Assembly: GCA_027488835.1 (NCBI GenBank)
Contig: JAIYAW010000003.1
Coordinates: 1 to 64,000, forward strand
From: Bacteroidota bacterium
GTDB taxonomy: Bacteria; Bacteroidota; Bacteroidia; NS11-12g; UBA955
Length of the DNA stretch: 64,000 bases
Reading direction: 5' to 3'
In this document: positions 1 to 47,491 of the stretch, one piece after another
Layout: every line of letters begins with the position of its first letter
How positions within the stretch are numbered: position 1 is the stretch's first letter
Notes under the pieces: generated by a model
The model's input: only the letters and a program-made list of their open reading frames with translations
The model's database searches: none
What the model was told of the DNA's origin: nothing
Made by a program: the position numbers and the translations under genes

Positions 1-126
1 ACAGTATCAACTACCAACACAGGTTTGATCAACGTAGACGCAAGCAGCTTGAGCAGCGGAGTTTACTTGGTTCAAATTTCAAACGGTAACCAAGTTGTAA
101 CCCGTAAAATCAATATTCAAAAATAA
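1..126 (+). CDS. C-terminal end of a T9SS type A sorting-domain protein (partial)
   Basis: The window opens inside a reading frame of which 41 residues remain. They end SSGVYLVQISNGNQ then VTRKINIQK and stop at 124-126. This is the usual end of a type A T9SS C-terminal domain: a SGVY strand, a short hairpin, then a basic strand ending in lysine. The domain directs a periplasmic precursor through the SprA translocon for cell-surface attachment or release. The catalytic or structural part lies upstream of the window, so the cargo function is unknown. A rho-independent terminator follows about 45 bases downstream. Confidence 0.8.
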   Translation, partial: TVSTTNTGLINVDASSLSSGVYLVQISNGNQVVTRKINIQK

Positions 127-167
127 AAAGTTGTCGGCAATTCAATTGCCTAAGTAATGTTTCATAC

Positions 168-197
168 AAAAAGGCGGCCATTGGCCGCCTTTTTTGT
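168..197 (+). terminator. Rho-independent terminator after the T9SS cargo gene
   Basis: A perfect 9-bp stem AGGCGGCCA/TGGCCGCCT (172-190) is followed by a T run. It lies between the stop at 126 and the gene-free stretch. A weaker 7-bp stem (GGCAATT/AATTGCC, 136-150) sits just before it. Confidence 0.85.
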
Positions 198-261
198 TTA
201 GAAGCACTTCGTGCGTATAGAAGAGCTTCGCTCGTTTTTGGTTTAGAAGCATTGACATGCG
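197..261. repeat. Three tandem TWTAGAA + 4-bp hairpin + G units with covarying stems
   Basis: The units start at 197, 216 and 242. Each has TTTAGAA or TATAGAA, a 4-bp hairpin, then G. The hairpins are GCAC-TTC-GTGC (204-214), GAGC-TTC-GCTC (223-233) and GCAT-TGAC-ATGC (249-260). Stem bases differ between units but pairing is kept in all three, which suggests selection on structure or duplication of a palindromic element. Visible directly; role unknown. Confidence 0.6.
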
Positions 262-341
262 TTTAGGTAGGGCATCAAAATTTGAAATCATTTGTTAAAC
301 GACCGTTAGGTCATCTAAAAGGCGCGTAGCCAATAAACCAA

Positions 342-373
342 CCTTTATAAGCCTTTATAAACCCTATAATTCT
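342..373 (+). repeat. 32-base imperfect direct repeat, copy A
   Basis: It matches 471-502 at 27 of 32 positions; the shared core reads TATAAGC-n-TTTATAAACC. The copies are 129 bases apart in the same orientation. Confidence 0.6.
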
Positions 374-470
374 AACCAGTCTAACCTTTCCGAAAGCTTT
401 CTGGATAACTCAGATTTAGTTTACGCTTCGCAGTTTAATCAAGTTCAAACCAAATCTAAACTCTCATAAA

Positions 471-502
471 CCCTTATAAGCATTTATAAACCTTAGAATT
501 CC
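471..502 (+). repeat. 32-base imperfect direct repeat, copy B, overlapping a gene end
   Basis: Copy of 342-373 with five mismatches. Its last 10 bases (493-502) are the stop and final codons of the minus-strand dehydrogenase gene, so the repeat, or its duplication, involved the 3' end of that gene. Confidence 0.55.
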
Positions 503-1149
503 CTCAGAAATTCCTTTTTAAGAAGCCCACAAATCTTATATCTCTCTTCATGAGTATCGTTATATACTGCATTTAACGTATTGTAAACGTTTTCAATTCC
601 GATGAGTTCTAAGAATTCAAATGGGCCTTTTGGATAGTTCGTGCCTAGTTTCATGGCAGTATCAATGTCTTTTGCATTTGCAGTTCCCTCTTGGACCGTA
701 TAAAATGCCTCATTGATGATCATGCAAATAATGCGAGGTGTTACCATTCCAACCCGGCTATCAACCATGGTAGACGTTGTATAACCCATAGTTTCAAACA
801 AATCTGTTGGGATTTCAACGTCATAAGGATTTGTATATTCTAAAGTGGTGCGGTCAACCATTGTGGGTAGCGCATTGATTCCAATAATTTTTAAATCGTG
901 TTGCTTTATTTGATTTTTGGCAAACGCGCCTTCCAACGAAATATTAACCGCACTTACTAAAAACACAGTTTGTGTATTGGTTGAATATGAAAGGAGATTT
1001 GTGGGGTTTTCGTCGAAATCTAAATCTATAAATGCATCAAAATCGGTATGAGATTTTGTATCTTGCACCCATGTGTAGGAATTTGCATTTAAATTTTTGG
1101 CTTTCCAAGCTTCCGCTTTTTTGCCTGTTCCCAATACTGCTATTTTCAT
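493..1149 (-). CDS. Short 3-hydroxyacyl-CoA dehydrogenase family protein
   Basis: A 218-residue protein. Residues from about 130 (RVGMVTPRIICMIINEA) to 205 match the 3HCDH C-terminal domain, including the NEA helix and the GTNYPKGPFEF segment. The N-terminal part starts like an NAD-binding fold (MKIAVLGTG) but is only about 110-120 residues, shorter than the usual Rossmann domain of FadB/PaaH enzymes. It may oxidise a 3-hydroxyacyl-CoA or have lost that activity. I chose the ATG at 1149 rather than one 21 bases upstream because a perfect -7 promoter element lies at 1157-1164, inside the longer frame. It is divergent from ridA with 26 bases between starts. A PaaN-like enzyme at 3521 and a PaaJ-like thiolase at 45892 suggest a link to phenylacetate or fatty-acid catabolism (inference). 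Confidence 0.75.
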   Translation of the reverse strand: MKIAVLGTGKKAEAWKAKNLNANSYTWVQDTKSHTDFDAFIDLDFDENPTNLLSYSTNTQTVFLVSAVNISLEGAFAKNQIKQHDLKIIGINALPTMVDRTTLEYTNPYDVEIPTDLFETMGYTTSTMVDSRVGMVTPRIICMIINEAFYTVQEGTANAKDIDTAMKLGTNYPKGPFEFLELIGIENVYNTLNAVYNDTHEERYKICGLLKKEFLREF

Positions 1150-29700: not shown

Positions 29701-30893
29701 TTTTCGATAGAACTATAAATTGTATTTGCATCATTGCTAGCCGCAGGATCAAGTACCCCATTCAATTGTTTTCTATACGGATTAGATTCACCTAAATCTT
29801 GAAAAGCCAATATATCACGGGGTGTTTCAACATTTGCATTTTTGTTGGTAACCCATGCTTCAACCCTGTTAATTACAACGCCACTTGCAACAATTGGTAG
29901 GTTTTCTAATGACTTATTGTAATTATCCTTAAAAAATTGTGCTAAGAAATAGTGTTTGTTTTGGTCGTAATTGTCGGCGGTTATTTTAAACTCGTTCATT
30001 TGAGCACCCCCTTTTAAGACAGTTTCAGTGCTTTGTCCCTTATTTTGAGAAAAAACAGTTTTAACTGTTGTTTTGCCAAATTGCATGCTATTGGCAAAAC
30101 CAAACAACGTAGGTACAGGTTTTATTAATTGCGTAGGTAAATTCAAACTCACATTACCTACTTGAACATCTTTTAATATGCCATCCGGCTTTCCTTTCCA
30201 ACCTAAATTTGTTTGATTGTCAAAATCAAATTGAGCCTCAGTATCATAATTGATTCCAAGCTTTACGAATTCTCCAATACTTCCTCTTGCTGAAATTTGC
30301 AGTTGTTGGTCAAACACCGGAACAAAATACAATTGTTGGCGTTTGCTAAAGTTAGGATTTCTAATTTCATTGATGGTTCCACCAAGTTTGACCATTGCAG
30401 ATCCACTCAATTGGAAATCTACACCCCCGGCACCAAATATTTTGGAAATTGCGGGGTTGCTTAATTCTGCGTTGATGTAATTTGATAATCCACCTTTTGT
30501 TGCTGCTTGAGAATAATCAGTATTCTGAGTTTTCTTGCGGTAATACTCGCTGTTTTTCTCTTTGGAAAAAACTTGGAAATACTCAGTAACACTTAATGAT
30601 TCACCTGTGGGATAGGTGAGCGAACCCAATTGTTTGAAAGATTCGTATCTATTGGTTTTTGAATTGTATTTCCATTCAACTTTTAATGGATCATCCAAAT
30701 CAACATTAGATGTATTTTGTTTGTTCTTGTCTGGATTGCTCGGTTTTGAAATTTTATATTTTACACCGGTAGAATCATTTTGTCCAAACAAAGAACCTGT
30801 TGCAAAAAATGCAACAAATACTATCGCGATTTTTTGCAAAATTCGCAACAACCCAAAATTAAAAAATACTTTAAATCGAAACTGATCGGTCAT
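23751..30893 (-). CDS. sprA: T9SS outer-membrane translocon SprA (Sov)
   Basis: A 2380-residue protein, the size of SprA/Sov, which forms the 36-strand outer-membrane channel for T9SS cargo. An N-terminal export signal (about 18-38, ending SLFGQ) is followed by the SprA N-terminal region, long repetitive beta-strand segments with alternating aromatic and polar residues, and a C-terminal strand ending LTDFGLEFRYTFN. A Lys/Asp-rich charged loop occurs at about 1880-1920 (PKAKSKGKKTDKPK). No frame break is seen. It lies 65 bases after ruvA and 6 before porZ. Confidence 0.97.
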   Translation of the reverse strand: MTDQFRFKVFFNFGLLRILQKIAIVFVAFFATGSLFGQNDSTGVKYKISKPSNPDKNKQNTSNVDLDDPLKVEWKYNSKTNRYESFKQLGSLTYPTGESLSVTEYFQVFSKEKNSEYYRKKTQNTDYSQAATKGGLSNYINAELSNPAISKIFGAGGVDFQLSGSAMVKLGGTINEIRNPNFSKRQQLYFVPVFDQQLQISARGSIGEFVKLGINYDTEAQFDFDNQTNLGWKGKPDGILKDVQVGNVSLNLPTQLIKPVPTLFGFANSMQFGKTTVKTVFSQNKGQSTETVLKGGAQMNEFKITADNYDQNKHYFLAQFFKDNYNKSLENLPIVASGVVINRVEAWVTNKNANVETPRDILAFQDLGESNPYRKQLNGVLDPAASNDANTIYSSIENDVDTRKLGSAIDKVYKTFPYFEQTVDFDLLNYARQLQTNEFTVNTQLGFISLNQPLNNDEILAVAFEYTLNGKTYQVGEFSRDVPPGDQKLLYLKMLKGNTIRTRLPIWRLMMKNIYSLNTYTLTLEDFKLNVIYADDTSGADYGYIPVGTANLPALKNAIPLIRVLGLDKLNRQQEAKPDGVFDAIEGITVQSQFARIIFPETEPFGDYLREKFENRTDLADFYCYDAIYDSTKFLAAQDVKHNKFFIQGSYKSSNGAEMFLGTTNLQRGSVRVTANGRPLQEGMDYEVDYAMGRVRIINQGLLQGGAEIRASADGQSFFNIQQKTLLGARIEHKFSKNMMLGGTILHMYERPLTTKTNFNEEPLYNSIIGADFAYSSKSRFITKLVDKLPFIETKEISNITAYAEYAQVFPHAFKSQGNQTGVSNLEDFENAELPNDFKVVNNWVVASIPQKQPDLFPTTQLGEKRNWLNNHAKLSFYTIDQLFYRDADMPSNIQNRVDEILSNPYMRQIDQREVFPQRNFPQGTPTILPTLDLAFNPNVRGLYNFNTDPNQIDQDGNLLNPKNSWAGIMRRVDQNDFEAANIDYVEIWMMDPLINNPNLSGELLLHFGNVSEDILPDRRKSFENGLPTSGNDINTTDTSVFGIIPTSPQINFAFDNNDATLKTQDVGIDGLSDANEQIFYDTGYLQKLKSNFGPTSKLYLSAMNDPSNDNFVHYLEDKYTVADADIIQRYARFQGMEGNSNPDKYTNQYSGMPKSSSPTPDFEDVNRDFTMNQSEDYFQYKMKISATELQIGKNYVADIVNNNVKLRNGQDKNIRWYQFKIPIRQFEKAVGNISDFKSIRFMRMIMTGFNDSAVLRMGYINLVRADWRRYTNALKNPGIVVPTDPNDGTKFIVSTVNLEENGKRSPIAYVTPPGVVRVQNMASLGTVLENEQSLSLKVCDLKPGDGRGAFKTANFDIRNYKRMQLFIHAEESIPNTIDDGEATAFIRFGTDLTSNYYEYEIPLKMTRGYVNSNSPNSDKLVWPDENFIDLEFQKLFDLKIQRQNANWPMTAPYISATDKGKISVMGLPDLSNLKAMMIGVKNKGNAPQCFEIWANELRVKDISNGGGWAALANIQTQLADFGTLNMAGSIRTIGFGDVDKKLNDRSLTNNYNYDIASNLELGKFFPAKAGVSIPMYIGWSESFVRPKFNPLNPDIELETMLTQIANATVRDQVRKAAEEYNSLYSFNISNFKVASNQSKKAMPWGISNFNASYSYTNTYRRNQQIEEQFYKTTQISLGYNYNLTAKFIRPFAKIFRSNTLALIRDFNFNFIPSTFNAQLQLNRLYSESQSRNNNNFIQVNPRLFDKNFTLTRNYNASLPLTNSITISYMANVQARIQEPFGAINTKEKQDSIFNEFKGFGRISRFTQTMNATYTLPFSKLGFLKWISSSASYIGSYEWNQAPPAFTTLGNRIQNSQDINITSQFNFTQFYSMIPWLKDYNKPKAKSKGKKTDKPKVSTDDEDGPKFESAIEKGKDDKPKVNPVIMAVGNFITMFKNANLNIQRKQATELPGFAFRPDYFGHNFTHLQPGLGFVLGMQDESIRYKLANNGGLMKDTRQANFYRQNFTQSISGSVTVEPIKDFRIRLDFIRNETKGTQSVFKYDGINWMDQGLTQNGTYNISGWFFNTHFVDDINQNENHPNPIFDEFLSNRYTVANRLQINDIRIGTTQIDPQTGFPIGYSKNSQEVLIGSFYATYSKLDVGTTSLSNLSAFPSIPMPNWNITYNGLTKIKALSKIFTNINFKHAYNGKYSVGDFTQNLRFDRLEVPTIGKDLTPQFQIANVTISEGFMPLIGVNITTKNNWTIGFDYKRSRILKLFAASFNLTEMRQNEFQMTAGYRVTGLTLPFKRRGRKIFLPNDFRFDLAVSISDNVTIIRKIDVNVNRYTAGMTNIRITPSITYQVNQKVNFALRYNRVIMDPKIATQFYTSLTDFGLEFRYTFN

Positions 30894-31573: not shown

Positions 31574-33334
31574 TTAAGTATAACGTTTGCGACGTATCAA
31601 ATAGTTTGCAATACCCAAAATAAATATACTTAAAATTGGCAAAATCATCGAAAACCATTGCCAGTAAACTTTTTCTGACTTTGATTTTTCAGGATCTAAC
31701 AATCTTAACGTTCTTTCTTTTGCTCGAATTTCAATTAAACCGTTGTTATCTATCAAATAATCAATACAGTTTAAAAGGAACTTTTTATTGGCAAAAGTGA
31801 ACTGTGATATTTTATCGTAACCCGTTGGGAAAAATTTCCCACTGCTACTTACAGGATTGCGCGCTATGTCACCATCAGCAATAACAATCATTTTGCTTTT
31901 CCCCTCCGCTACAAAAGGTATTTCTGTATATTTCTTTTGGTAGACGAATGGCGACTTAAACTGTCCCTCCAAAAGCAAACCCGAAGTTTTAACTCCCTGG
32001 TTCAAAGTTGATCTATATTGCACATCCCTTGACTGCATATACACATTTTCCAAATTAATAGAAGCGGGAGTATTAATTACCTTTGAATATTGTGTACTGC
32101 TCAACAATGGTATGGCCGTTACGTCGGTTCTGATTTTAGGTTGTAATGTTCCAGGAAATTGACACCAAACTGTACCCATGTTTTTGCAAATAATGTGAGG
32201 CATGTCGGTTGATCCAAACAAAGGGAAATAAGGAAAATCAACCAACTCCATTCTCTTTCCTGCGGGGATAGGTATTTGATTGCATTTTAAATCTTCCAAT
32301 AGCGTGTTTTCAAGTCCCACACCGTAAGTAAAGAGTGAAGCAGTAATATTTTCTAGCCCATAATCATATGCCAATACTTCTTTGTCGTTTCTAAAACTGT
32401 CTATTTCAATATTTACAGGATCTACAAGCCAAAGGGCTTTTCCGCCTTTCATGATAAATTGATCAATCAAATACAACTCAGTAGGAGAGTAATCTTTAAT
32501 TGGTTTGATAATCATGATCATGTCGTTTAGGTTTAGTCTACGTTGTAGGCTATTTACTAAAATAGTACCCGCATTTTTAGGATCTTTTTCAAGACTTTTG
32601 ATAAAAGGGCGGGCAGATTCTGGATCATTTGTATTTAAATTGATGGCCGAAACTTGGTAGTATTTGCTTAATTCTGCAGCAAAGCTCTCAACCCTTCCAT
32701 CAAGCATTTCTCCACTACCGTCAATAACGGCGATGTTCTTCATTTTTTCAGTCACAACCTGGCGCAAGCCATTTGCAATTTCATATTCAATATTGTCAAT
32801 GGCACGCTGAATGTTTTCCTCAGGCGATTTTGCTACATCGTAATCGAAGAAATTAATGGCAACGGTTTTTTTATCACTCATTAATTCAGCTCCTGGTAGC
32901 AAGTATTTCATTTTTGTTTCATCAGGGTTTTCATTGTCCATGTCACGAACAGGTTCAATTCCTTTTTGAACAAAATCGTCTAATAACGCATCAAGGTCTT
33001 CTTTTTTTACTCCTTTAAAGGGATCAACAATTTCGATTTCTATTTTTTTACCACTGATTTCTCTGAATTCATAAGCAATATCGCGAATTTCAAGTTTTAA
33101 TTGTTTGAATTTTGCCGACATAGCACCATCTAGGTATAACTTGAAATAAACTTTGTCTTTAACATTTTTAGCAAGAGTTTTACTTGTTTCGCTGAGGGTA
33201 TATCGCTTTTCTAAAGTTAAATCAATGCGTTTGTAGTAAAGCGAACTTAATATATTGCCCAAAACAATAAGTAAGAACAATACAGAAAAGTTGATATACG
33301 ATTGTATTTTTTTATTTGTTCTGTTCATCACCAT
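31574..33334 (-). CDS. gldG: Gliding motility ABC transporter auxiliary protein GldG
   Basis: A 586-residue membrane protein. One N-terminal helix (about 13-31) is followed by a large periplasmic ABC_transp_aux domain with IEIVDPFKGVKKED, IAVIDGSGEM and LWLVDPVNIEID segments. A C-terminal helix (about 562-580) ends in RRKRYT. With GldA and GldF it forms an ABC transporter needed for gliding in Flavobacterium; the substrate is unknown. It overlaps gldF by 7 bases. Confidence 0.93.
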   Translation of the reverse strand: MVMNRTNKKIQSYINFSVLFLLIVLGNILSSLYYKRIDLTLEKRYTLSETSKTLAKNVKDKVYFKLYLDGAMSAKFKQLKLEIRDIAYEFREISGKKIEIEIVDPFKGVKKEDLDALLDDFVQKGIEPVRDMDNENPDETKMKYLLPGAELMSDKKTVAINFFDYDVAKSPEENIQRAIDNIEYEIANGLRQVVTEKMKNIAVIDGSGEMLDGRVESFAAELSKYYQVSAINLNTNDPESARPFIKSLEKDPKNAGTILVNSLQRRLNLNDMIMIIKPIKDYSPTELYLIDQFIMKGGKALWLVDPVNIEIDSFRNDKEVLAYDYGLENITASLFTYGVGLENTLLEDLKCNQIPIPAGKRMELVDFPYFPLFGSTDMPHIICKNMGTVWCQFPGTLQPKIRTDVTAIPLLSSTQYSKVINTPASINLENVYMQSRDVQYRSTLNQGVKTSGLLLEGQFKSPFVYQKKYTEIPFVAEGKSKMIVIADGDIARNPVSSSGKFFPTGYDKISQFTFANKKFLLNCIDYLIDNNGLIEIRAKERTLRLLDPEKSKSEKVYWQWFSMILPILSIFILGIANYLIRRKRYT

Positions 33335-34056
33335 TTTCTGCTTTCAAATACAATTTTTGTCAAACCAAGAAATACCAAGATAAATCCCACAAAATAGATA
33401 ACGTCTCTGGTATCTACCAAACCTCTACTTATTGAATCGTAGTGGAATTCTAAACCAAACCATTCCAAACTCTTTCCGATGAAATTAAGCCAAGAAGCTT
33501 CGCCGAGCATACTCAACACTCCAAAAAAGAAAAAATTCAAGAGCATCGAAGTAATCAATGCCACAATTTGATTGTCGGTTAGTGAGCTGCTAAACATTCC
33601 AATACTTGCATAGCAAGCGGCAAGTAAAATGAGTCCAAAATAGCTGCCTAAAGTTGCTCCAATATCTACATTTCCAATAGGCGTTGCCAATTGATACACC
33701 GCATAGAAGAAAAATAAAGTTGGCAATATTGCAATTGCGATTAAGGTAACCGAAGCAAAAAACTTGCCTGCTATGATGGCGGTGTCTGTAATTGGCTTGG
33801 TGGTTAAAATCTCTAAAGTACCTAATCGTTGTTCATCACTTATGCTTTTCATTGTGATGGCAGAAACCAAGAAAATAAGTATATAAGGAGCAATTTCAAA
33901 CATCACTTGTAAACTTGCAATTCCTAAGTCAAATACATTGTTCCCTTTTATTATCCAAAGGAACAATCCTGTTAAAATTAAGAAAACCCCGATAACTATA
34001 TAAGCAATGAAGGAACCAAGGAAACTTCGAATTTCTTTTTTAAATATGACCCACAT
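33328..34056 (-). CDS. gldF: Gliding motility ABC transporter permease GldF
   Basis: A 242-residue permease with about six transmembrane helices and the ABC-2 type pattern. The conserved EQRLGTLEILTTKPITD segment (about 75-91) between the second and third helices couples to the ATPase. It overlaps gldA by 17 bases and gldG by 7, so translation of the three is coupled. Confidence 0.93.
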   Translation of the reverse strand: MWVIFKKEIRSFLGSFIAYIVIGVFLILTGLFLWIIKGNNVFDLGIASLQVMFEIAPYILIFLVSAITMKSISDEQRLGTLEILTTKPITDTAIIAGKFFASVTLIAIAILPTLFFFYAVYQLATPIGNVDIGATLGSYFGLILLAACYASIGMFSSSLTDNQIVALITSMLLNFFFFGVLSMLGEASWLNFIGKSLEWFGLEFHYDSISRGLVDTRDVIYFVGFILVFLGLTKIVFESRKW

Positions 34057-35950: not shown

Positions 35951-36848
35951 CTTTTTGTAGTTGTATTTTGAGCGCGTCCAATCCATTAAATCTTTGTTCT
36001 TCCCGCAAAAATTGTACCAAAAACAAGGTGATTTGTTGGTTGTATATGTCGTTATTAAAGTCAAGAATATGTGCTTCAATGGTTTGGGTAGTGCCATCTA
36101 CTGTTGGTCTAACGCCAATATTGAGCATGATTTTATACTTGGTTTCTCCAATAAGTGTATAGCCAATGTACACTCCGTTGGGAGGGATTAATTTATTTGG
36201 TTCGTCAATTTGAATATTGGCAGTAGGAAATCCCAATTGACGGCCAAGCTGTTTTCCCTTTACTACAGTTCCACTTAGTATATAAGGTCTTCCCAATAAC
36301 TCATTTGCACTTTCGAGGTTACCACTATTCAAAGCTTTCCGAATTCTGGTGCTACTCACAGCAATTTCCTCAATTTCAGATGCATCAATCTCCTTTACAT
36401 CAAAATTGAATTCAGTTGCCAAATTGGTCAATTCTTCAAATCCTCCAGATCTATTTTTGCCAAATCGGTGGTCATATCCCACAACCATGCACTCCACATT
36501 TAGTTTTTTTACCAGTATTTCGTTCACGAATTCTCTAGGTGAAAATTGTGAAATTTCATGAGTAAACGACAATACAAGTACATAATCAATACCCATTTCT
36601 AAGATTTTTTTCGCCTTTTCTTCTATTGAAGATAAGAGTTTAATGCTGGTATTTTTGGGGTCAATGACCAATCTTGGATGTGGGTGGAAGGTAATTAATA
36701 AACTGGGTTTGCTATAGGATTTTGCTAGGTTAACTACTTGTTTTAAAACATGTTGATGTCCCAAATGAACGCCATCGAAAGTTCCCTGGGTAATTACAAA
36801 ACCATTGTTTTGAGGGATGTTTTCAAGGTCGAAAATTAAGCCGTTCAT
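35916..36848 (-). CDS. ribF: Bifunctional riboflavin kinase/FAD synthetase
   Basis: A 310-residue protein. The N-terminal FAD synthetase part has GTFDGVHLGHQ (22-32) and the C-terminal riboflavin kinase domain (about 185-308) has GKQLGRQLGFPTANI and NGVYIGY. It makes FMN and FAD from riboflavin in the cytosol. It is divergent from porQ with only 40 bases between the starts. A near-consensus -7 (GAACTTTG, 36857-36864) and a TTG at 36884-36886 are spaced 19 bases apart. Its end overlaps the M23 gene by 35 bases. Confidence 0.96.
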   Translation of the reverse strand: MNGLIFDLENIPQNNGFVITQGTFDGVHLGHQHVLKQVVNLAKSYSKPSLLITFHPHPRLVIDPKNTSIKLLSSIEEKAKKILEMGIDYVLVLSFTHEISQFSPREFVNEILVKKLNVECMVVGYDHRFGKNRSGGFEELTNLATEFNFDVKEIDASEIEEIAVSSTRIRKALNSGNLESANELLGRPYILSGTVVKGKQLGRQLGFPTANIQIDEPNKLIPPNGVYIGYTLIGETKYKIMLNIGVRPTVDGTTQTIEAHILDFNNDIYNQQITLFLVQFLREEQRFNGLDALKIQLQKDEAKTRAAQLL

Positions 36849-36875
36849 TCTATGTGCAAAGTTCGTAATAAACCC

Positions 36876-36883
36876 TATTTTTG
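36876..36883 (+). promoter_or_regulatory. -7 element TATTTTTG of porQ, interleaved with the ribF promoter
   Basis: Perfect TAnnTTTG, 5 bases before the ATG at 36889. The ribF promoter boxes on the other strand (36857-36886) overlap it, so the two promoters probably compete. Confidence 0.6.
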
Positions 36884-36888
36884 CAACT

Positions 36889-37920
36889 ATGAGGATGAAG
36901 TTTCTGCAATTTATTTTGTTAGTTGGAATAATCGCCAGTGGAAAAGCCCAAGTTGGAGGAACGGGAGTTTTTCAAATTTTGGAAGTTCCTTTGCACGCAA
37001 GATCTATGGCTTGGGGTGGTTATTTATTGGCTTCTCCTACTACAGATGTTCAATTCTCTTCAAACAATCCAGCGCTACTAAATAAGTCTTTACACAACAA
37101 CTATGGAGTTACTTATGGTAGTTTTTTACCTGGTGTAACCAATGGTGGAGTAGGGTATGCCTTCAACAAAGGAATTCATAATTTTTCATTTCATGCGCAA
37201 TACCTGGATTATGGCACAATGAAATCATTCGACGACGGTGGCAATTCGTTAGGAACTGTGTCGGCAAATGAAACCAAAGTAACGTTGGGCTATTCGAGAG
37301 AACTTACAGATAGAATTACTTTAGGAGCCCAGTTGGGTTTTGTTTACAGTGTTTTGGAACCCTACGTTTCAAATGGGATTTTTTCTAATTTAGGAGCGCA
37401 TTACAACTCGGAAGACACGCTGATTCAAATGGGATTGATTGTCAGAAACATTGGATTTATGTTAAACGCATATAGAAATGCCTCACGCGAATCACTTCCA
37501 TTTAATATTCAATATGGTGTTTCAATCAAACCAGCTCATATGCCAGTAAGATTTCAGATAATCGCGCATTCGCTTCAAAAATGGGATTTAACTTATGATC
37601 AATATTTGAAAACAGGTACAATGGATTTGAATGGACAAGAAGTTCTTCCGCAGGAATCAAACTTTGGAGATAAATTGTCAAGACATTTGGCATTAGGTAT
37701 GGAATTTATTTTGGGTGAACATCTGGGATTGTTAGTTGGATATAACCATCAACGCAGGGCGGAAATGGCGCCTGAAGCACAAAAAGGAATGGCGGGATTT
37801 GGTTGGGGATTGAAGTTTAAAGTGTATAAATTCCATATTACGTATGCGAGTTCATCTTATTTTCCGGGCTTTAACTCAAATATGTTTTCTATTTCATTAA
37901 TTCCCGCATTTTTAAATTAA
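36889..37920 (+). CDS. porQ: T9SS protein PorQ
   Basis: A 343-residue predicted outer-membrane beta barrel with a signal peptide (1-20) and the PorQ start GGTGVFQILEVPLHARSMAWGG. Strand repeats continue to a final SSSYFPGFNSNMFSISLIPAFLN. PorQ with PorU, PorV and PorZ forms the attachment complex that links T9SS cargo to lipopolysaccharide. The ATG at 36889 is chosen because it follows the -7 element by 5 bases; an ATG two codons later is possible. Three bases separate it from cmk. Confidence 0.9.
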   Translation: MRMKFLQFILLVGIIASGKAQVGGTGVFQILEVPLHARSMAWGGYLLASPTTDVQFSSNNPALLNKSLHNNYGVTYGSFLPGVTNGGVGYAFNKGIHNFSFHAQYLDYGTMKSFDDGGNSLGTVSANETKVTLGYSRELTDRITLGAQLGFVYSVLEPYVSNGIFSNLGAHYNSEDTLIQMGLIVRNIGFMLNAYRNASRESLPFNIQYGVSIKPAHMPVRFQIIAHSLQKWDLTYDQYLKTGTMDLNGQEVLPQESNFGDKLSRHLALGMEFILGEHLGLLVGYNHQRRAEMAPEAQKGMAGFGWGLKFKVYKFHITYASSSYFPGFNSNMFSISLIPAFLN

Positions 37921-38601: not shown

Positions 38602-38612
38602 AATAGTTTGTC

Positions 38613-38620
38613 TAACTTTG
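38613..38620 (+). promoter_or_regulatory. -7 element TAACTTTG of tpiA, with -33 TTG
   Basis: Perfect TAnnTTTG, 5 bases before the ATG at 38626. A TTG at 38593-38595 lies 17 bases upstream, inside the end of cmk. Confidence 0.65.
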
Positions 38621-38625
38621 CGCCA

Positions 38626-39387
38626 ATGAGAAAGAAAATAGTTGCCGGAAATTGGAAAATGAATAAAACCTTGGTTGAAAGCCAAGCGCTGATTACTGAA
38701 ATTAGAGGAATTGTTAGAGATGAGAATACCAATAAAGCCGAAGTAATTATTTGTCCTACTTTTTTGGCATTGTCTTCTGCATCAAAATTACTCGATGGAA
38801 GTACCGTTAAATTGGGTGCTCAAAATTGTCATTTTGAAGAAAGCGGCGCTTATACTGGAGAACTTTCTGCCTCTATGTTGAAGTCTGTTGGTGTTTCTCA
38901 TGTAATTATTGGACATAGTGAACGCCGTCAGTATTTTCATGAAACAAATGAAATGCTTGCCAAAAAAACAACAGCAGCGGTAAATCAAGGTTTAACCGTT
39001 TTGTTTTGCGTTGGGGAAACTTTGGAAGAAAGAGAATCTGGTTCGCATTTTAAGGTTATTCAATCTCAAATTTCTGAGGGACTTTTCCACCTTAGTGCGA
39101 AGGATATGTCGTTGGTAGTTGTGGCCTATGAGCCAGTTTGGGCTATTGGAACCGGATTAACAGCAAGTTCTGAGCAAGCGGAAGAAGTACATGCATTTAT
39201 TCGTACATTGCTCACAGAAAAATTTGGTGAAGCAATTTCAGAAGAAGTTTCTATCCTTTATGGCGGAAGTGTAAAACCCGATAACGCAGCAGAATTGTTT
39301 TCGCAAAAGAATATTGATGGTGGATTAATTGGAGGCGCTGCTTTGAAAGCACGAGATTTCTTTGATATTATCAAAGAGATTAAATAA
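38626..39387 (+). CDS. tpiA: Triose-phosphate isomerase
   Basis: A 253-residue TIM barrel with the conserved N-terminal AGNWKMNKT (catalytic Lys), the catalytic His in IIGHSERRQYFHE, the catalytic Glu in VVAYEPVWAIGTG and the phosphate-binding YGGSVKPDNA/GGLIGGAAL. It interconverts glyceraldehyde-3-phosphate and dihydroxyacetone phosphate. The ATG at 38626 gives the family N terminus; an upstream TTG at 38608 would run through the promoter. Confidence 0.98.
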   Translation: MRKKIVAGNWKMNKTLVESQALITEIRGIVRDENTNKAEVIICPTFLALSSASKLLDGSTVKLGAQNCHFEESGAYTGELSASMLKSVGVSHVIIGHSERRQYFHETNEMLAKKTTAAVNQGLTVLFCVGETLEERESGSHFKVIQSQISEGLFHLSAKDMSLVVVAYEPVWAIGTGLTASSEQAEEVHAFIRTLLTEKFGEAISEEVSILYGGSVKPDNAAELFSQKNIDGGLIGGAALKARDFFDIIKEIK

Positions 39388-39438: not shown

Positions 39439-39443
39439 AGGAG
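39439..39443 (+). promoter_or_regulatory. Shine-Dalgarno AGGAG before the 1504-residue protein
   Basis: AGGAG spaced 7 bases from the ATG at 39451. A near-consensus -7 element (TATTTTTA, 39421-39428) precedes it. Strong SD sites are rare in this window. Confidence 0.6.
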
Positions 39444-39450
39444 TTATTCT

Positions 39451-42400
39451 ATGATTAAATTAAAATTGTTTTTCTTAATAGTGCTTTTGGCGCTCAGTAA
39501 TGCTGCTTTTTCTCAAATACGCAGTTTTAATTCTGATCCTACCATCTTCATGAAGGAATTGGAAGACCTTTTTAAGGGAGTTGATGACAAAGAAACGCTT
39601 CGAGATTTTGCTATTTTTAAAGAAAACTGGTTAAATGGTAAGTTTACTCCGAATCAGCAAAAATTTATGATGCAGGTTTCAAATCAAATGCTAACCGATC
39701 AAATGCAAGTATTGCCTTATTTCAAATTGTTTTATGGCACCATTACCCGTTTTCTTGAGAGAAAAATGCCCGATAAAACGCTTGCACAGTGGCAAGGGTT
39801 GGTGAAAACAATTTTGGCTAATTCATCCGAAGATTATCTCGAATTTCTAAAAACTACAGAACAATTATTTTCATCTAAAACACTATTTATCAATGAAAAT
39901 AAAAAATGGTTTGTTGATACTAATAATTACGATATTAAATTGGTTAAAGGCAAGATAGCCATTGATTTTGGCGAAGTTACTTTAACCTGTAAATCACTCA
40001 GTGATAAACTTATTATTTCAAAAACCAAGGGTATTTATTTTCCAGGAACAGCAATTTGGGAGGGGAAATATGGAAATACAGACTTTTCTAGAGCAATACC
40101 TGAAGACAAAACGCTCATTAAATTTGGCAAATACTCAATCAATTTCAATAAAGCCGAATATCAGATTGATACAGTGACGCTTATATATCCGAAATATTTT
40201 AAAGAACCCATTTTAGGGAAATTTTCTGATAAATTGATGTTTTCGCTCGATTCAAATACGGTGAAAACAGGCGGATATCCCAAATTTACATCATTTAATA
40301 ACAATTTGTTGGTTCGTGGTATTGTTGGTTCAGAATCCTTTTTTAGGGGTGGATTCTCAATGAATGGCGGTGTAATTAATACGCAAACAGTAGATAACAA
40401 ACCATCGTTCATTGATATTTTTTATAAAGGTAAAAAGAAGGTTACCTTGAAAAGTACGGGATTTAGAATTGCAAAAGGTGTTGCAAATTCTCCCAATACG
40501 GAATTTACTTTATACCTCGATAGCGGTAAAAACATTAGCCATCCTGCGGTTCAAGTTTCTTTTGTATTTAATGACAATCGTTTAATCATCAACCGTGGTG
40601 AAGAAGGATTGATGCGCACTGCATTCAATGATGATTACCACAACATGAGTATCGACGTGGAGCAGATTCGGTGGAAAATTGATGAGCCATTTGTAGATTT
40701 TGACAATATCAACGACGATAAAGGAGTGAAGTTTGAATCGAACGATTTCTTTAGGGATTTTATTTATGAAAAATGGCAAGGACCTTTACTCACCAACCCA
40801 CTTGAAAAAATTAACGCTTATTATTTAAGAACTCCTCCTGATCCAATAGCAGAAAGACTTGACAAAGAAATCAAAACATTATATGCAAATCCGAAGAGAG
40901 ATCAAGCTTTAATCTCGGTGAAGTTAAAAGAACTCAGCGAACGAAAAAGTAATGCAAAAAGATTGATTAATTTCAAAGAAAGAGGCACATTCCATTTAGA
41001 CGATTATTGTAGATTTTTCAATTTAGAACCCACGAATACCAAACACTTATTTATTGATTTGCACGATGCAGGGTTTGTGAATTATAATTTTAAAACTGAT
41101 AGCATTAAAATTAATCGCAAATTATTCAAATATAATTTGATGCACAAAAAAGCAATTGATTATGATGTAATCCGTTTGAATTCGGTAATTGCAGCAAAGC
41201 CCAATGCTACCTTGAATTTGCTTAGCAATGAAATGAATATTGAAGGGGTGAGATTCTGTTATTTTTCTGATTCCCAAAACGTAAGTGTTCGTCCTACAGA
41301 CCAATCTGTTGTTCTAACTCACAATAGAAATTTAAGATTTGGTGGGATGGTTCGTGCGGGTCGTTTTGATTTTTACGGGCAGCGATTTAATTTTTCATAT
41401 GAAAAATTCATTATTGATTTTGCGAATATTGATTCCATGCAAATGTTCTTTCCAGATGAAACGGGACAGAGATTGATTCCAATTAAATCGGTTTTAAGAA
41501 ACATTGGAGGGACATTATTCATTGATAAACCCAATAATAAATCGGGAAATATAAACTACCCAGAATATCCAATTTTCACTTCGAACAAAGGAAGTGATAT
41601 TTTGTATGACAAACCAAGTATTCACGGTGGCCAGTATAAAGGTGATGTGTTTAAGTTTGTGGTGGATCCATTTACAATTGATAGTTTAGATAACTTTACA
41701 ATCCAAGGTTTGCGATTTGAAGGAGAGTTCTTTTCAGATGGTATTTTTCCAGATTTTAGACATTATGCCTATATACAACCTGATTATTCTTTGGGATTTG
41801 TAAAATCAACGCCACCGGGAGGTTACCCAATGTACAGAGGGAAGGGACATGGCGATATGACCATGAATTTGAGTGAAATGGGTTTTTATGGTGAAAATGG
41901 TGAAATCAAATATGAAACAAGTTCTACCAAGTTTACTAAAATTCTGTTGTTGCTAAATGAAGCGAAGGGCGATATCAATTCTTACGATTTAAATCAGAAC
42001 TCCAAATATCCAGAAATTCATGCAGTAAATGCTTCTTTGAATTGGAAACCGTATAACGATAAGTACACCATTACCCAGGGTAAAACTCCCATCAAAATGT
42101 TTAATTATGGTTATGACTTCTTTGGTAAAATTACCCAGAGTCCTACCAATGTTATTGGTGACGGTTTATTGAAGTGGGATTTGGCAACATTTGGCAGCAA
42201 GGAAATGGTTTTTGCGCCTCAAAAAGCAAAAGCAGAAGTTGGAGAATTAACTATTTTTGCATTGGATTCAACCAAAGTGGTATTTAATAGCAAGAACATT
42301 CATGGTACAATGGATTTCGCAACAAGAATGGGTGATTTCGCAACAAATGAAATGGGCCAAATTACCAATTTTCCATTCAATAAATACCAAACCAATTTGA

Positions 42401-43965
42401 GTGATTACAAATGGAATATGGACAAGAAAACCATCGAAGCAAAAGTTGGTCCCGGTATGGGAGGCTTAACGCCAGAGTTTTTAAGTACCAATGTAACCCA
42501 AGATAGTTTGAAGTTTGAATCGCCAAAGGCCATTTACAATATGGAAGATTATACCCTCAAAGCTGAGCAGATTCCATATATTGATATTGCCGATTCTCGA
42601 TTGTTTTTGAAGGATGGGAAAGTGACCATCCGTGAAAATGCAAACATGGATACCTTATTTGAAACCAAGTTAATTGCCAATAGAGATGATAAGTTTCATG
42701 AAATTTATAAACTCACAATTAAAGTACTTGGCAAGAATAGGGTGCATGGTTCCGGATTTTACCAATACGTGGATAAACTTGCAAACCGCCAAGAGTTTTT
42801 GTTAGATAGCGTAATTGTAAATAGAAAGAAACATGTTGAGGGAATTGGTGTGATTCAAGAAGAAAGAGGATTTACCCTAGATAAGAAAATTGGATACAAG
42901 GGAATTGCTCAAATTGAAAGTAGTGAGCAATTGATTAAATTCTTAGGATTTGTGAAACCCTTGCATACATTTAAAAACGTACTGCCATCGGCTTGGGTGA
43001 GTTTCAGAGATTTTGTAGATCCCAAAGATGTGGTTATTCCATTGTCAAATCCACGTGATAGGCTCAATACAAAGCAGTTTGTTGGGTTATACATTGCAAA
43101 TGATTCGTCTCACGTTTATCCGTTGTTGTTTTCTGCAAGAAGACGATATAGCGATAATGATGTTTCTAACGATACCGGGATATTGTATTACGACCATAAG
43201 TTAGAAAGTTTCATGGTGGGAAGTGAAGACAAATTGAGAAATGGCGGAACAAAAGGTAGTTTCATTCAATTCAATGAAAAAGACCATACCATTCATGCAG
43301 AAGGTCCAATGGATTTTGGATTAGAATCTGAAAATATCAAATTTAAAAATGCCGGTCATGCCGATTTGAAAGCAAAAGACAGTACGTTCTCATTTAATTT
43401 GGCAATGATGCTCGATTTTCCTCTGCATAAAGACTTTGTTGAATATTTGGTAAACAAAATCAATGAAGGAGGACCAGGTACGGTTGATTTAAATACGGAC
43501 TTCTTTAAAGATGCACTTGGTGAGATGATTGCTTCACCAAAGGTATTGCGAAATGCAATTTCAGGTATTGAAAAGAGCAACCAACTCAAAGGAAAAGATG
43601 AATGCGATTATACCTTAGTAATGTCTGATGCAACGTTCCGTTGGGACAATAAAATGAGAGGTATGTATTGCAATGACAATGTAATTATTGCAAGTATTGC
43701 TGGTACCCCAATTAATAAAGAAGTAAAGGCAACCATGCTTTTAGAATCTAAACGTTCTGGTGAAAATATGTTTATCTACCTTAACTATGGCGAAGATTAT
43801 GTATTTTTCAACCTTACCAAAAGTAAGTGTGCGATTTATGCATCTGATCCTAAGTTAACAGAAATCTTGATTAACACGGCGAATAAGGTAAAAGCGAAAG
43901 ACTTTTATATCATGCAAACTACCGAGAGAACAGTAGACAAGTTCTTGAAGAAAATAGAGCGTTAA
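39451..43965 (+). CDS. Large exported protein of unknown function (1504 residues)
   Basis: I do not recognise this protein. It has a signal peptide (1-22, ending AFSQ). A helical N-terminal region (about 25-160, LEDLFKGVDDKETLRD) is followed by a long beta-rich part with repeated short strands. Around 460-560 is a helical, possibly winged-helix-like insert (LDKEIKTLYANPK and FHLDDYCRFFNLEPTN). A further very long beta region runs to about 1400, and a helical C terminus ends DKFLKKIER. Segments such as DSLKFESPKAIYNMEDYTLKA resemble the OstA/LptA-like periplasmic jelly-roll style, which would fit lipid or LPS transport, but this is only an impression. There is no sorting domain or membrane helix after the signal. 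It follows tpiA by 63 bases and meets truA tail to tail with a 4-base overlap. Confidence 0.85.
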   Translation: MIKLKLFFLIVLLALSNAAFSQIRSFNSDPTIFMKELEDLFKGVDDKETLRDFAIFKENWLNGKFTPNQQKFMMQVSNQMLTDQMQVLPYFKLFYGTITRFLERKMPDKTLAQWQGLVKTILANSSEDYLEFLKTTEQLFSSKTLFINENKKWFVDTNNYDIKLVKGKIAIDFGEVTLTCKSLSDKLIISKTKGIYFPGTAIWEGKYGNTDFSRAIPEDKTLIKFGKYSINFNKAEYQIDTVTLIYPKYFKEPILGKFSDKLMFSLDSNTVKTGGYPKFTSFNNNLLVRGIVGSESFFRGGFSMNGGVINTQTVDNKPSFIDIFYKGKKKVTLKSTGFRIAKGVANSPNTEFTLYLDSGKNISHPAVQVSFVFNDNRLIINRGEEGLMRTAFNDDYHNMSIDVEQIRWKIDEPFVDFDNINDDKGVKFESNDFFRDFIYEKWQGPLLTNPLEKINAYYLRTPPDPIAERLDKEIKTLYANPKRDQALISVKLKELSERKSNAKRLINFKERGTFHLDDYCRFFNLEPTNTKHLFIDLHDAGFVNYNFKTDSIKINRKLFKYNLMHKKAIDYDVIRLNSVIAAKPNATLNLLSNEMNIEGVRFCYFSDSQNVSVRPTDQSVVLTHNRNLRFGGMVRAGRFDFYGQRFNFSYEKFIIDFANIDSMQMFFPDETGQRLIPIKSVLRNIGGTLFIDKPNNKSGNINYPEYPIFTSNKGSDILYDKPSIHGGQYKGDVFKFVVDPFTIDSLDNFTIQGLRFEGEFFSDGIFPDFRHYAYIQPDYSLGFVKSTPPGGYPMYRGKGHGDMTMNLSEMGFYGENGEIKYETSSTKFTKILLLLNEAKGDINSYDLNQNSKYPEIHAVNASLNWKPYNDKYTITQGKTPIKMFNYGYDFFGKITQSPTNVIGDGLLKWDLATFGSKEMVFAPQKAKAEVGELTIFALDSTKVVFNSKNIHGTMDFATRMGDFATNEMGQITNFPFNKYQTNLSDYKWNMDKKTIEAKVGPGMGGLTPEFLSTNVTQDSLKFESPKAIYNMEDYTLKAEQIPYIDIADSRLFLKDGKVTIRENANMDTLFETKLIANRDDKFHEIYKLTIKVLGKNRVHGSGFYQYVDKLANRQEFLLDSVIVNRKKHVEGIGVIQEERGFTLDKKIGYKGIAQIESSEQLIKFLGFVKPLHTFKNVLPSAWVSFRDFVDPKDVVIPLSNPRDRLNTKQFVGLYIANDSSHVYPLLFSARRRYSDNDVSNDTGILYYDHKLESFMVGSEDKLRNGGTKGSFIQFNEKDHTIHAEGPMDFGLESENIKFKNAGHADLKAKDSTFSFNLAMMLDFPLHKDFVEYLVNKINEGGPGTVDLNTDFFKDALGEMIASPKVLRNAISGIEKSNQLKGKDECDYTLVMSDATFRWDNKMRGMYCNDNVIIASIAGTPINKEVKATMLLESKRSGENMFIYLNYGEDYVFFNLTKSKCAIYASDPKLTEILINTANKVKAKDFYIMQTTERTVDKFLKKIER

Positions 43966-44690
43966 TTCGGGTAAATTACTTTAGTTAGAAATAATCCTTT
44001 TGCAGCCACTGAATTACCGGCATCAGATCTTGTCCCGGTTTTCAGTATGGTTTCAAATTCATCTACTGACATTTTTTCGGTTCCAATTAAAATACTCGTT
44101 CCTACCAAGGCCCTAACCATATTTCTAAGAAATCTGCTTGCAGATATCCTAAATATTATCTGTGAACCCTGTTCGAACCAGATTGCCTCGTAAACATGAC
44201 AACGGTAATTATCCGCAGGAGGTAATCCTTTACAAAATGCTTGAAATTCATTTGTACCCAAAAGAATTTTTGCGGCTTGATTCATGGCATCTAAATCCAA
44301 CTTTTTTGTAAAAGAATAAGAAAATCTATCAGTAAAAGGATTGGGATTTGTTTCAATGAAATACTGATATTCTCGCAATGTTGCATCGAATCTTGCATGG
44401 AAGCTATCATGGGTTGGCAAACAATTTTTAATAGAAATACTTTTTGGCAGCATCGCATTGAGTTTGTATACAAACGATTCCGGCATGGGTAAATCAAAAT
44501 TAAAATGTGCGGTATATTCACTTGCATGAACACCTGTATCGGTTCTTCCACAACCCATAATTTCGATGGGTTGATTGCATATTTGAGAAAGTTTATGTTG
44601 AATTACCTCTTGAACAGTAATTCCATTTGGTTGAATTTGCCAACCATGAAAGTCAGTGCCATCGTATGATAAATCGAGGCGGTAACGCAT
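43962..44690 (-). CDS. truA: tRNA pseudouridine(38-40) synthase TruA
   Basis: A 242-residue protein with the catalytic aspartate in MGCGRTDTGVHA (Asp51), the YDGTDFHGWQ start and the C-terminal RFLRNMVRALVG motif. It makes pseudouridine at positions 38-40 of the tRNA anticodon stem-loop. Its start codon shares one base with the thiolase stop (TAATG), so the two are coupled. Its stop overlaps the stop of the 1504-residue gene through a TTAA. Confidence 0.97.
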   Translation of the reverse strand: MRYRLDLSYDGTDFHGWQIQPNGITVQEVIQHKLSQICNQPIEIMGCGRTDTGVHASEYTAHFNFDLPMPESFVYKLNAMLPKSISIKNCLPTHDSFHARFDATLREYQYFIETNPNPFTDRFSYSFTKKLDLDAMNQAAKILLGTNEFQAFCKGLPPADNYRCHVYEAIWFEQGSQIIFRISASRFLRNMVRALVGTSILIGTEKMSVDEFETILKTGTRSDAGNSVAAKGLFLTKVIYPN

Positions 44691-46025: not shown

Positions 46026-46895
46026 ATGTCCCTCATGAAAAAAATAAACTGCCTTTTTGTTTTTCTTTTTTGTTCAAGTTTGCTAGGTCAAAACGTTAAA
46101 ATAGTTTTGAAGGATACTTTTAAATATAGAGATTTTGTATTTTTCAATAAGGTTTATTCTTATGAAAATAGTGAATTCGCAAACAAAAGAAAAACTGATA
46201 TTTTAAAGAGTTTAAACAAGGAAAATGAGGATTTTTATTGGGGAGATACAATGAGAAGTCATCTCGAAATTGCTGATTTATTCGTGGCTGGTCCGTTTGA
46301 TTTTGTTTTGAAAACATCCCTCGATCAAATAAAAAAAACAATCTACCAGCTAACAGATGGCGATTTGGTAAATAATTACAATGAGAATTTTAGTGGCTAT
46401 TGTAAAGAAATTGTTGATACGGCTGCAACCTATGGTTTCATAGAGCATGAACAAACGGTTTCTGTAACCAATGTGTTTTTTGACATCATTACAATTGGAA
46501 ATTTTTCTTACGGATTTTCAGGTGGTGCCCATCCCAATCATTGGCATAACCATTTTTTAATTGATTTAACCGATGGCCGATTGTTAACTTTTACCGATGT
46601 GTTTCAATCGAGTAAGGAAAATCAGTTAAAAAGTTTGTTGAGTTCGAAATTCAATACCGATTATGGGAAAGATAACTTATTGGATCAATTTGAAATTGCA
46701 GATAATTTTTCAGTTGATAAAAATGGGATTCATTTTTTATATAATCCCTATGAAATTACACCTTATGCTCTTGGAGATCCAGAAATTACAATCAGCTTTA
46801 CTCAGGCATTGCCGTTTTTAACGCCCTATTTCAAATCAAAAGTATTGCAGCATTTAAAAACGGGGAAACCTTCTGTCAAAAAGAAAAAATCATGA
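46026..46895 (+). CDS. DUF3298 (RsiV-like) domain-containing exported protein
   Basis: A 289-residue protein with a signal peptide (to SLLGQ, about 22). The C-terminal DUF3298 domain (about 160-275) shows the hallmark FSGGAHPNHWHNHFLIDL, DGRLLTFTDVF and GIHFLYNPYEITPYALG. Its relatives include the lysozyme-binding anti-sigma factor RsiV and PdaC-type envelope proteins, so a periplasmic ligand-binding role is possible, but no sigma factor is adjacent. It ends in a Lys-rich tail. An ATG three codons later (46035) is also possible. A near-consensus -7 (GAATTTTG) ends 5 bases before the first ATG. Confidence 0.8.
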   Translation: MSLMKKINCLFVFLFCSSLLGQNVKIVLKDTFKYRDFVFFNKVYSYENSEFANKRKTDILKSLNKENEDFYWGDTMRSHLEIADLFVAGPFDFVLKTSLDQIKKTIYQLTDGDLVNNYNENFSGYCKEIVDTAATYGFIEHEQTVSVTNVFFDIITIGNFSYGFSGGAHPNHWHNHFLIDLTDGRLLTFTDVFQSSKENQLKSLLSSKFNTDYGKDNLLDQFEIADNFSVDKNGIHFLYNPYEITPYALGDPEITISFTQALPFLTPYFKSKVLQHLKTGKPSVKKKKS

Positions 46896-46966
46896 AAACC
46901 GGGCACAATCAGACGTAGTGAGTTTGTTTGATCGCTTAGAGATTTATTTTGTTTTCATTATATTCG

Positions 46967-46974
46967 TATCTTTG
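46967..46974 (+). promoter_or_regulatory. -7 element TATCTTTG of the small membrane protein gene
   Basis: Perfect TAnnTTTG, 7 bases before the ATG at 46982. Confidence 0.55.
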
Positions 46975-46981
46975 GAAAGCC

Positions 46982-47491
46982 ATGAAGAGGAAGTTGTACA
47001 AGATTAGTTGTGTATTGTTGTCGGCCTTACTTCCTTTATTAATGGTTGCTGAATTGATTGGTATTCAAATTCAAAAGAAAAATTTCAAACAACAACTTAT
47101 TTTGCACTCTCCTGCACTTTACAAGTATCAAGAAACTCTTTTCGTTTCAAATAAGGACTACGCAAATCAACATGTTGGCGATGAAATTTCATTGAATGAC
47201 AATATGTATGATATTATTTCAATTGAAAAACGTTCCGATGGTTATTATTTTATAGTATTCAATGATACCTTAGATAAAAAGCTTGAATCGCTGCTTAGTC
47301 AACATTCAAACGCGAATCATCCATCAAAAAAATCGAACAAAAAATCAATTCAGAATATTCAACTATTTGTTGAATTATTCTCGGGTTTTGAATATCAATT
47401 GAAGGAATGTATCTCATCTTTCAAATTTTCACATTCACGTTTAACAAAGGGTTTCAAATCAAACCCATTTTTGCCCCCAAAAGCTTGTTGA
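46982..47491 (+). CDS. Small membrane-anchored protein of unknown function upstream of a TonB receptor
   Basis: A 169-residue protein I do not recognise. A single N-terminal hydrophobic helix (about 8-27, ISCVLLSALLPLLMVAELIG) is followed by a soluble region. This has a short beta-rich part (DEISLNDNMYDIISIEKRSDGYYFIVFND, about 65-95) and a polar linker (HSNANHPSKKSNKKS). The end is PPKAC with the protein's last Cys at the C terminus. The ATG at 46982 is supported by the -7 element 7 bases upstream. It lies 113 bases before the TonB receptor, so a shared role in uptake is a guess from context only. Confidence 0.65.
   Translation: MKRKLYKISCVLLSALLPLLMVAELIGIQIQKKNFKQQLILHSPALYKYQETLFVSNKDYANQHVGDEISLNDNMYDIISIEKRSDGYYFIVFNDTLDKKLESLLSQHSNANHPSKKSNKKSIQNIQLFVELFSGFEYQLKECISSFKFSHSRLTKGFKSNPFLPPKAC

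Follow-up and report, generated by a model that had tools for sequence, protein, structure and literature searches.

A conserved 1504-residue exported protein of Bacteroidia with predicted Lpt-type jelly rolls: a possible periplasmic lipid conduit

The gene described here lies in a 64,000-nucleotide stretch of DNA (positions 1 to 64,000 of contig JAIYAW010000003.1, assembly GCA_027488835.1, from a Bacteroidota bacterium of the class Bacteroidia), referred to below as the window. It encodes a 1504-residue exported protein, called the giant protein in what follows. The frame of 1504 codons is uninterrupted by stops on the plus strand from the ATG at 39451 to the TAA at 43963-43965, as an earlier reading of the window, made from the sequence only, had stated. 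The gene tpiA (38608-39387, TIGR00419) lies upstream with 63 bases between the two, and truA (43962-44690, minus strand, TIGR00071) is convergent downstream and overlaps the giant gene by 4 bases.

The giant protein was found in all 57 genomes of a close set, consisting of the window's own genome and 56 others that share its genus, family or order (21 of 21 genera), and no second full copy was seen among them. A draw across the class, limited to genomes with a completeness of at least 80, gave the protein in 320 of 396 genomes, the own one among them, which represent 162 of 204 genera, and the possibility that it is confined to a single strain was thereby excluded. Two draws across the phylum (completeness of at least 90) returned 10 of 247 genomes with a single-sequence query and 11 of 296 with a profile query, the own genome included, and we take the gap between the phylum and class frequencies to reflect which families were sampled. 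Where a contig holds the gene whole, the frame usually measures about 1460-1580 codons; several others end at contig edges, and in genome G051 the gene is split over two frames of 875 and 641 codons, possibly by a frameshift. Among the matches listed, those in genomes G475, G393, G499 and G519 contain one in-frame stop (TAA or TAG) each.

The 76 class genomes lacking a match belong to 19 families, labeled here by f-numbers: f3 (16 genomes), f6 (15), f4 (10), f13 (7), f94 (5), f10 and f98 (4 each), f7 (3), f5 (2) and ten families with one each. Genomes with and without the protein occur side by side in f7, f10 and f94, among others, which suggests several losses of the gene. One of the genomes without it measures just 0.5 Mb. 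The ratio of nonsynonymous to synonymous substitution rates (dN/dS) was 0.017-0.021 against three relatives with a 98% identical protein and 0.068 against one relative at 81% identity; purifying selection thus acts very strongly on the amino-acid sequence, as the sequence-only reading had argued from the length of the unbroken frame. The best-conserved part of the protein (Table 1) contains the motifs DYD (570-572), SDS (606-608), NKSG (696-699) and DYSLGF (778-783).

The N-terminus is that of a typical signal peptide, with a hydrophobic core followed by AFS/Q (within LALSNAAFS/Q), where the slash marks the end of the signal. Across 41 aligned members of the family, a 12-residue hydrophobic stretch close to the N-terminus was present in all, the strict motif [AGSTC]x[AGS]/Q in 19 and a lipobox in none. 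Additionally, no second membrane helix was detected in the window protein, as the 19-residue mean Kyte-Doolittle value was at most 0.84 beyond residue 40. These calls were made with purpose-made heuristics, not SignalP, and they agree with the signal peptide and the lack of later membrane helices noted previously.

Searches of the window protein against Pfam and NCBIfam gave no model at E<=1, including the Pfam models LptD, OstA, LptC, TamB and AsmA, and therefore none of the sorting domains that those libraries describe. NCBIfam contains models of sorting domains of the type IX secretion system (T9SS), and none of these C-terminal domains was matched at that threshold, so that the absence of a sorting domain noted before holds. 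Across 26 members, Pfam produced 14 weak families, each in one member, with OstA, LptC, TamB and AsmA not among them; the best of the scattered matches, also in one of 26 members each (Pfam Arylesterase, 0.006; an NCBIfam valine--tRNA ligase model, 0.0022), were taken as chance. Against PDB sequences, the window protein alone found nothing at E<=1, and the family profile found three matches (E 0.3-0.76), of which MarR 3jw4 (E 0.3) falls on the winged-helix domain described below. A self-comparison with hhalign listed no repeats in the protein, and DNA repeats were only short and chance-like.

The fold of the giant protein was predicted with AlphaFold in two overlapping parts, each with an alignment of 59 sequences. 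The model of residues 21-700 (m97650410bc13) had a mean predicted local distance difference test score (pLDDT) of 88.6 and a predicted TM-score (pTM) of 0.72, and that of residues 505-1504 (ma8852af524b3) a mean pLDDT of 88.9 and a pTM of 0.54. Both were searched with Foldseek against the PDB, and the top 1000 chains for each were re-ranked structurally (VIA), a procedure in which the best Z is typically 7-8 for models that match nothing clearly. For residues 505-1504, Foldseek gave 13 matches at E<=1e-3, namely 11 LptD chains (best 2.3e-6) and two teneurins. By VIA, ranks 1-16 for this part were all LptA, LptC or LptD, led by LptA (Z 10.8, 2.8 Å, 120 residues), and the top unrelated chain was a radial spoke protein with Z 8.0 (5.1 Å, 181 residues). 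For residues 21-700, ranks 1-15 were all LptD, LptA, LptC or LptH, all at 4.1 Å or better and led by LptD (Z 10.2); these were followed by winged helices from Z 8.0, and the top unrelated beta chain reached Z 6.3. The structure search for Lpt folds that the sequence-only reading had proposed thus placed them at the head of both models.

Single LptA, LptC or LptH domains were matched over 114-134 of their 125-175 residues, at 2.8-4.0 Å and in separate places, and for single LptA and LptC domains Z ranged from 8.0 to 10.8. With good model confidence, a beta-jelly-roll fold is predicted in at least four stretches (Table 1). The models also bear out the earlier description of beta-rich stretches around a helical, winged-helix-like insert, for which Csa3 was the best match and MarR, ArsR and IclR proteins scored Z 5.5-7.3 over about 70-85 residues; the helical N-terminal domain had been missing from that description. 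Roll 2 probably resumes after the insert, as LptD matches on it run past the insert to about residues 592-625. The C-terminal third is modeled as a beta-rich region followed by helices, a further beta region and a terminal helix, and no compact Lpt match to it was among the VIA rows shown. Matches to radial spoke, CPAP G-box, OspA, MORN and junctophilin chains (Z 4-8) were regarded as beta arrangements of a common kind. None of TamB, AsmA or VPS13 appeared in the structural rows shown, which excludes nothing.

Table 1. Coordinates of the giant gene and of its observed and predicted features in the window; residue numbers are those of the giant protein, and rmsd is the root-mean-square deviation in Å.
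Feature	Coordinates	Strand	Basis and remarks
Shine-Dalgarno-like motif AGGAG	39439..39443	+	Sequence; 7 bases before ATG
Gene for the 1504-residue exported protein	39451..43965	+	Intact frame; conserved; dN/dS 0.017-0.021
Signal peptide, residues 1-21 (AFS/Q)	39451..39513	+	Sequence; class-wide heuristics
N-terminal helical domain, residues ~30-142	39538..39876	+	AlphaFold model m97650410bc13
Predicted jelly roll 1, residues 152-289, LptC-like	39904..40317	+	VIA: LptC 3my2, Z 9.2, rmsd 3.7, 119 aligned
Predicted jelly roll 2, residues 293-432, LptA-like	40327..40746	+	VIA: LptA 2r1a_C, Z 9.5, rmsd 3.1, 121 aligned; LptD 9ia0_A, Z 10.2, rmsd 4.1, 157 aligned over model 276..605
Predicted helical insert with winged-helix domain, residues ~438-570	40762..41160	+	VIA: Csa3 2wte_A, Z 8.0, rmsd 2.7, 74 aligned
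Best-conserved part, residues 551-800	41101..41850	+	41-member class-wide alignment; 26-member alignment
Predicted jelly roll 3, residues ~571-778, LptC/LptD-N-like	41161..41784	+	VIA: LptC 3my2, Z 10.1, rmsd 3.2, 116 aligned (model 69..217); LptD 9a39, Z 10.2, rmsd 4.4, 158 aligned (model 67..272)
Predicted jelly roll 4, residues ~885-1062, LptA/LptC/LptD-N-like	42103..42636	+	VIA: LptA 2r1a_C, Z 10.8, rmsd 2.8, 120 aligned (model 381..510); LptC 6mit_C, Z 9.7, rmsd 3.0 (393..538); LptD 9ia2, Z 10.2, rmsd 3.2 (385..558)
C-terminal third, residues 1063-1504	42637..43962	+	AlphaFold model ma8852af524b3

The predicted fold led us to consider whether the giant protein acts as a one-piece periplasmic lipid conduit made of Lpt-type rolls, a reading that we prefer tentatively and with slightly less than even confidence. 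According to this proposal, the protein would be exported to the periplasm by its signal peptide as a single chain built largely of LptA/LptC-type beta-jelly rolls, to which the helical N-terminal domain, the winged-helix domain inside roll 2 and the beta-rich C-terminal third would be added. We infer that the rolls could line up end to end and so form a groove or tube with a hydrophobic lining, along which the acyl chains of an amphipathic molecule would slide through the periplasm, as lipopolysaccharide (LPS) does on LptA but within one polypeptide, and that the helical and winged-helix domains may dock the conduit to partners at one membrane. The cargo would more likely be a phospholipid or another outer-membrane lipid than LPS, because genomes have LptD and LptF/G whether or not they carry the giant protein, and OstA_2 and LptC occur in most relatives. 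A housekeeping role in the envelope would agree with the strong purifying selection and with the 320 of 396 class genomes that carry the protein.

In a wider and, in our view, unlikely form of the proposal, an unrecognised trans-periplasmic conduit of fused Lpt rolls would operate in many Bacteroidia beside the Lpt and TamB systems and would transport other amphipathic molecules, for instance the special lipids of the phylum (sulfono- or ornithine lipids) or even surface proteins anchored by lipid. The own genome also carries an OstA_2 protein of about 540 residues, LptC, one LptD_2, two LptF/G matches and one TamB, and the giant protein is thus an addition there, not a substitute. OstA_2 had a match in 25 of 29 genomes including the own one, and so did LptC. 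In a set of 30 genomes picked to include both holders and non-holders of the giant protein, all had at least two LptF/G matches, and TamB (PF04357) was matched in 388 of 396 class genomes. A replacement of TamB, LptD or LptF/G by the giant protein was rejected on these counts and on that of LptD given below, as was a replacement of LptA/LptC in the own genome, where OstA_2 and LptC are both present. Two or more TamB matches were found in 59 of 76 non-holder and 92 of 320 holder genomes, a comparison uncorrected for kinship and with at most four candidates scored per genome; since multiple matches are commoner where the giant protein is absent, this hints at overlapping roles of the two proteins.

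OstA_2 above the cut-off was not found in four holders (G005, G007, G011 and G017), even with a profile of the relatives' own OstA_2 sequences, which did recover a contig-end fragment in G009. Three of the four (G005, G007 and G011, of 96%, 82% and 74% completeness) were also without an LptC match. Genome G017, of 100% completeness, has LptC and LptD and shows a weak OstA_2 match of 19.4 bits, below the cut-off, inside a frame of 1113 codons. In these four genomes the giant protein might take the place of LptA. Assembly gaps or divergence may account for the missing OstA_2 and LptC matches.

Several observations weigh against a lipid conduit. The sequence-only reading had seen OstA/LptA-like strands in the protein and had suggested envelope lipid transport; the predicted fold, with Lpt chains as the top rows in two models, supports the first part, but transport itself stays a hypothesis, with lipid binding suggested by the predicted fold. 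The profile of the giant protein reached an hhalign probability of 1.2% with Bacteroidia OstA_2, 0.2% with LptC and 0.2% with LptD, the last from a profile in which three of six sequences are cut at the N-terminal side. The controls were equally blind (OstA_2 with LptC just 1.6%, OstA_2 with LptD 1.1%, LptC with LptD 0.1%), and this comparison says little either way because known Lpt families sharing the fold score equally low (0.1-1.6%). No extra LptD accompanies the giant protein, as LptD_2 was found once in each of the 30 genomes with or without it, and the neighbouring genes give no functional clue. Structurally, Foldseek gave nothing at 1e-3 for residues 21-700 (best 0.016, with LptD or LptH in 8 of the 10 top rows), and the leading Foldseek matches superposed poorly on full-length LptD (TM-score about 0.1, rmsd 45-49 Å). 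Seven of the 16 top Lpt rows for residues 505-1504 span the whole LptD chain at an rmsd of 14.9-51 Å and have little meaning, and the lowest Lpt rows (Z 8.0-8.2) are level with the unrelated radial-spoke chain; in the models, the match is one of repeated single rolls and not of an LptD-like whole. Long strands alternate in hydrophobicity more than shuffled ones (1.95 in 50 strands, versus 1.35 +- 0.14 and a maximum of 1.78 in 500 shuffles), which favours a conduit, but any beta sandwich would be expected to have amphipathic strands. Finally, the protein is not indispensable to the class, because it is absent from 76 of 396 genomes, including all those drawn from f3, f4, f6 and f13.

Gene neighbourhoods were compared at 41 loci, the window's and 40 others; the 40 come from 24 families, and 10 of them belong to the window's own family, f1. 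Directly upstream of the giant gene stood prmA at 23 loci and tpiA, the type seen in the window, at 9, together 32 of 41, and tpiA occurred anywhere within the compared stretch at 23. Directly downstream, plsY was found at 13 loci. In five plsY loci of genomes without the giant protein, prmA directly precedes plsY in two (L228 and L229), in which the plsY open frame begins 41 and 17 bases after the prmA stop; the other three had no prmA inside the fetched stretch. Because prmA directly precedes plsY in these two loci, the order tpiA-prmA-(giant gene)-plsY looks ancestral and the giant gene cleanly missing there. The neighbours thus point to vertical descent at a single locus and not to a common function. 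PlsY (PF02660) was matched in 259 of 320 holder and 29 of 76 non-holder genomes, a difference not corrected for kinship. We dropped plsY as a functional partner, as its adjacency probably reflects the ancestral order and the correlation lacks phylogenetic correction. PlsY was unmatched in 108 of the 396 class genomes, and the matches listed include none from f6 or f10. A check for T9SS genes beside the giant gene, which the sequence-only reading had proposed, found the PorQ cluster near it at 5 of 41 loci, every one in family f1.

The main rival to a lipid conduit is a periplasmic scaffold or spacer, in which rolls of Lpt topology would form a rigid rod that places outer-membrane assembly or secretion parts and passes no lipid. 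Likeness of fold does not prove function, the winged-helix and helical domains could be taken for protein-docking modules, and in the window's own family the gene stands beside PorQ and cmk and near gldF/gldG. However, lipid-carrying rolls rank above rod-shaped beta proteins (OspA or MORN repeats, for example) in the structural comparison, and the T9SS neighbourhood was seen nowhere beyond f1 in the 41 loci; altogether, we regard a scaffold as somewhat unlikely. That the protein is part of the LPS pathway or a stand-in within it, serving as a single-chain LptA alongside the same LptF/G and LptD, would agree with its top structural matches (LptA, LptC and the LptD N-domain), with the single LptD and the two or more LptF/G matches available in each of the 30 genomes, and with the four holders lacking a detected OstA_2, three of them also without an LptC match. 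The frequency of OstA_2 and LptC among the relatives, own genome included, the presence of LptD and LptF/G in genomes without the giant protein, and the gaps or divergence that may underlie the undetected genes make such a role quite improbable. A secreted or surface exoprotein (an adhesin or enzyme) unrelated to envelope biogenesis could also combine a signal peptide with a beta-rich sequence devoid of named domains, but surface proteins typically do not show such selection (dN/dS about 0.02), a locus common to many families and the absence of a known sorting domain, and we give this explanation the least credence.

The ribosome-binding region of the giant gene had been singled out as unusual for the window. 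Its AGGAG is indeed the sole Shine-Dalgarno (SD)-like motif, sought 4-12 bases before the ATG, among 43 non-overlapping ATG-started open reading frames of at least 150 codons in the window, but the motif is not conserved: it occurs before one of the first ATGs in 5 of 56 relatives' loci, three of these being the 98%-identical genomes, and no SD-like motif was found at the locus of the 81%-identical relative. Since it is not conserved among relatives, special regulation through this motif was rejected. A promoter and terminator scan saw 18 and 5 against 22.9 and 4.4 expected. Elsewhere in the window, PorQ of the T9SS (NF033711, 302 bits) is encoded at 36817-37920, directly upstream of cmk and tpiA. 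Gliding-motility genes lie at 31574-34056, namely gldG (TIGR03521, above cut-off) and gldF (TIGR03518, 285.1 bits, just below the cut-off of 288.5), and are adjoined by an ABC ATPase gene that is possibly gldA. A minus-strand open frame of 2380 codons spans 23751-30893, and the predicted proteins at 46026-46895 and 46949-47491 had no NCBIfam match at E<=0.001.

By its size, constancy and predicted fold, and because Pfam and NCBIfam have no model that matches it, the giant protein is a ready candidate for a component still missing, to our knowledge, from the route by which non-LPS lipids and surface lipoproteins cross the periplasm in Bacteroidota. No publication was recognised as describing it, judged by titles and abstract openings in a limited literature collection. 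The main texts of two 2025 reports on Bacteroidota BAM complexes (PMC12611786, PMC12578637) contain neither of the terms LptA and jelly, by term search. TamL and TamB are described as present in every Bacteroidota species examined and undeletable in Flavobacterium johnsoniae (PMC12045153), and for Escherichia coli, AsmA-like proteins have been put forward as bridges for phospholipids (PMC8593681).

Compared with known systems, the giant protein is most like LptA and LptC (PF13100 OstA_2, PF06835 LptC) in its predicted jelly roll (LptA Z 10.8, rmsd 2.8; LptC Z 10.1, rmsd 3.2), and LptA is likewise exported by a signal peptide, as the giant protein appears to be. It differs from them in being one chain of 1504 residues with several predicted rolls and winged-helix and helical domains, in having no sequence-family match and in coexisting with OstA_2 and LptC in its own genome. 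The roll of the LptD N-domain (PF19838 LptD_2 in Bacteroidota) is alike at residues ~571-776 and ~249-592, but the modeled giant protein ends in a helix with no sign of an outer-membrane barrel, and LptD_2 is encoded separately. The TamB/AsmA-like proteins (PF04357; YhdP, YdbH), which have been proposed to conduct phospholipids (PMC8593681; for Bacteroidota, PMC12045153), are also very long periplasmic beta proteins of about 1500 residues and widespread in the class. The giant protein, however, has no TamB/AsmA sequence match, TamB is matched separately in nearly all class genomes, and in place of their inner-membrane anchor its N-terminus looks like a cleavable signal peptide by our own heuristics. 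With the eukaryotic bridge-like lipid transfer proteins VPS13/ATG2 (PMC7613979), it would share the idea of a single-chain beta-groove bridge. If our preferred reading is true, the Lpt roll would occur fused into a single-chain bridge, an architecture linked until now with AsmA-like and eukaryotic bridge proteins.

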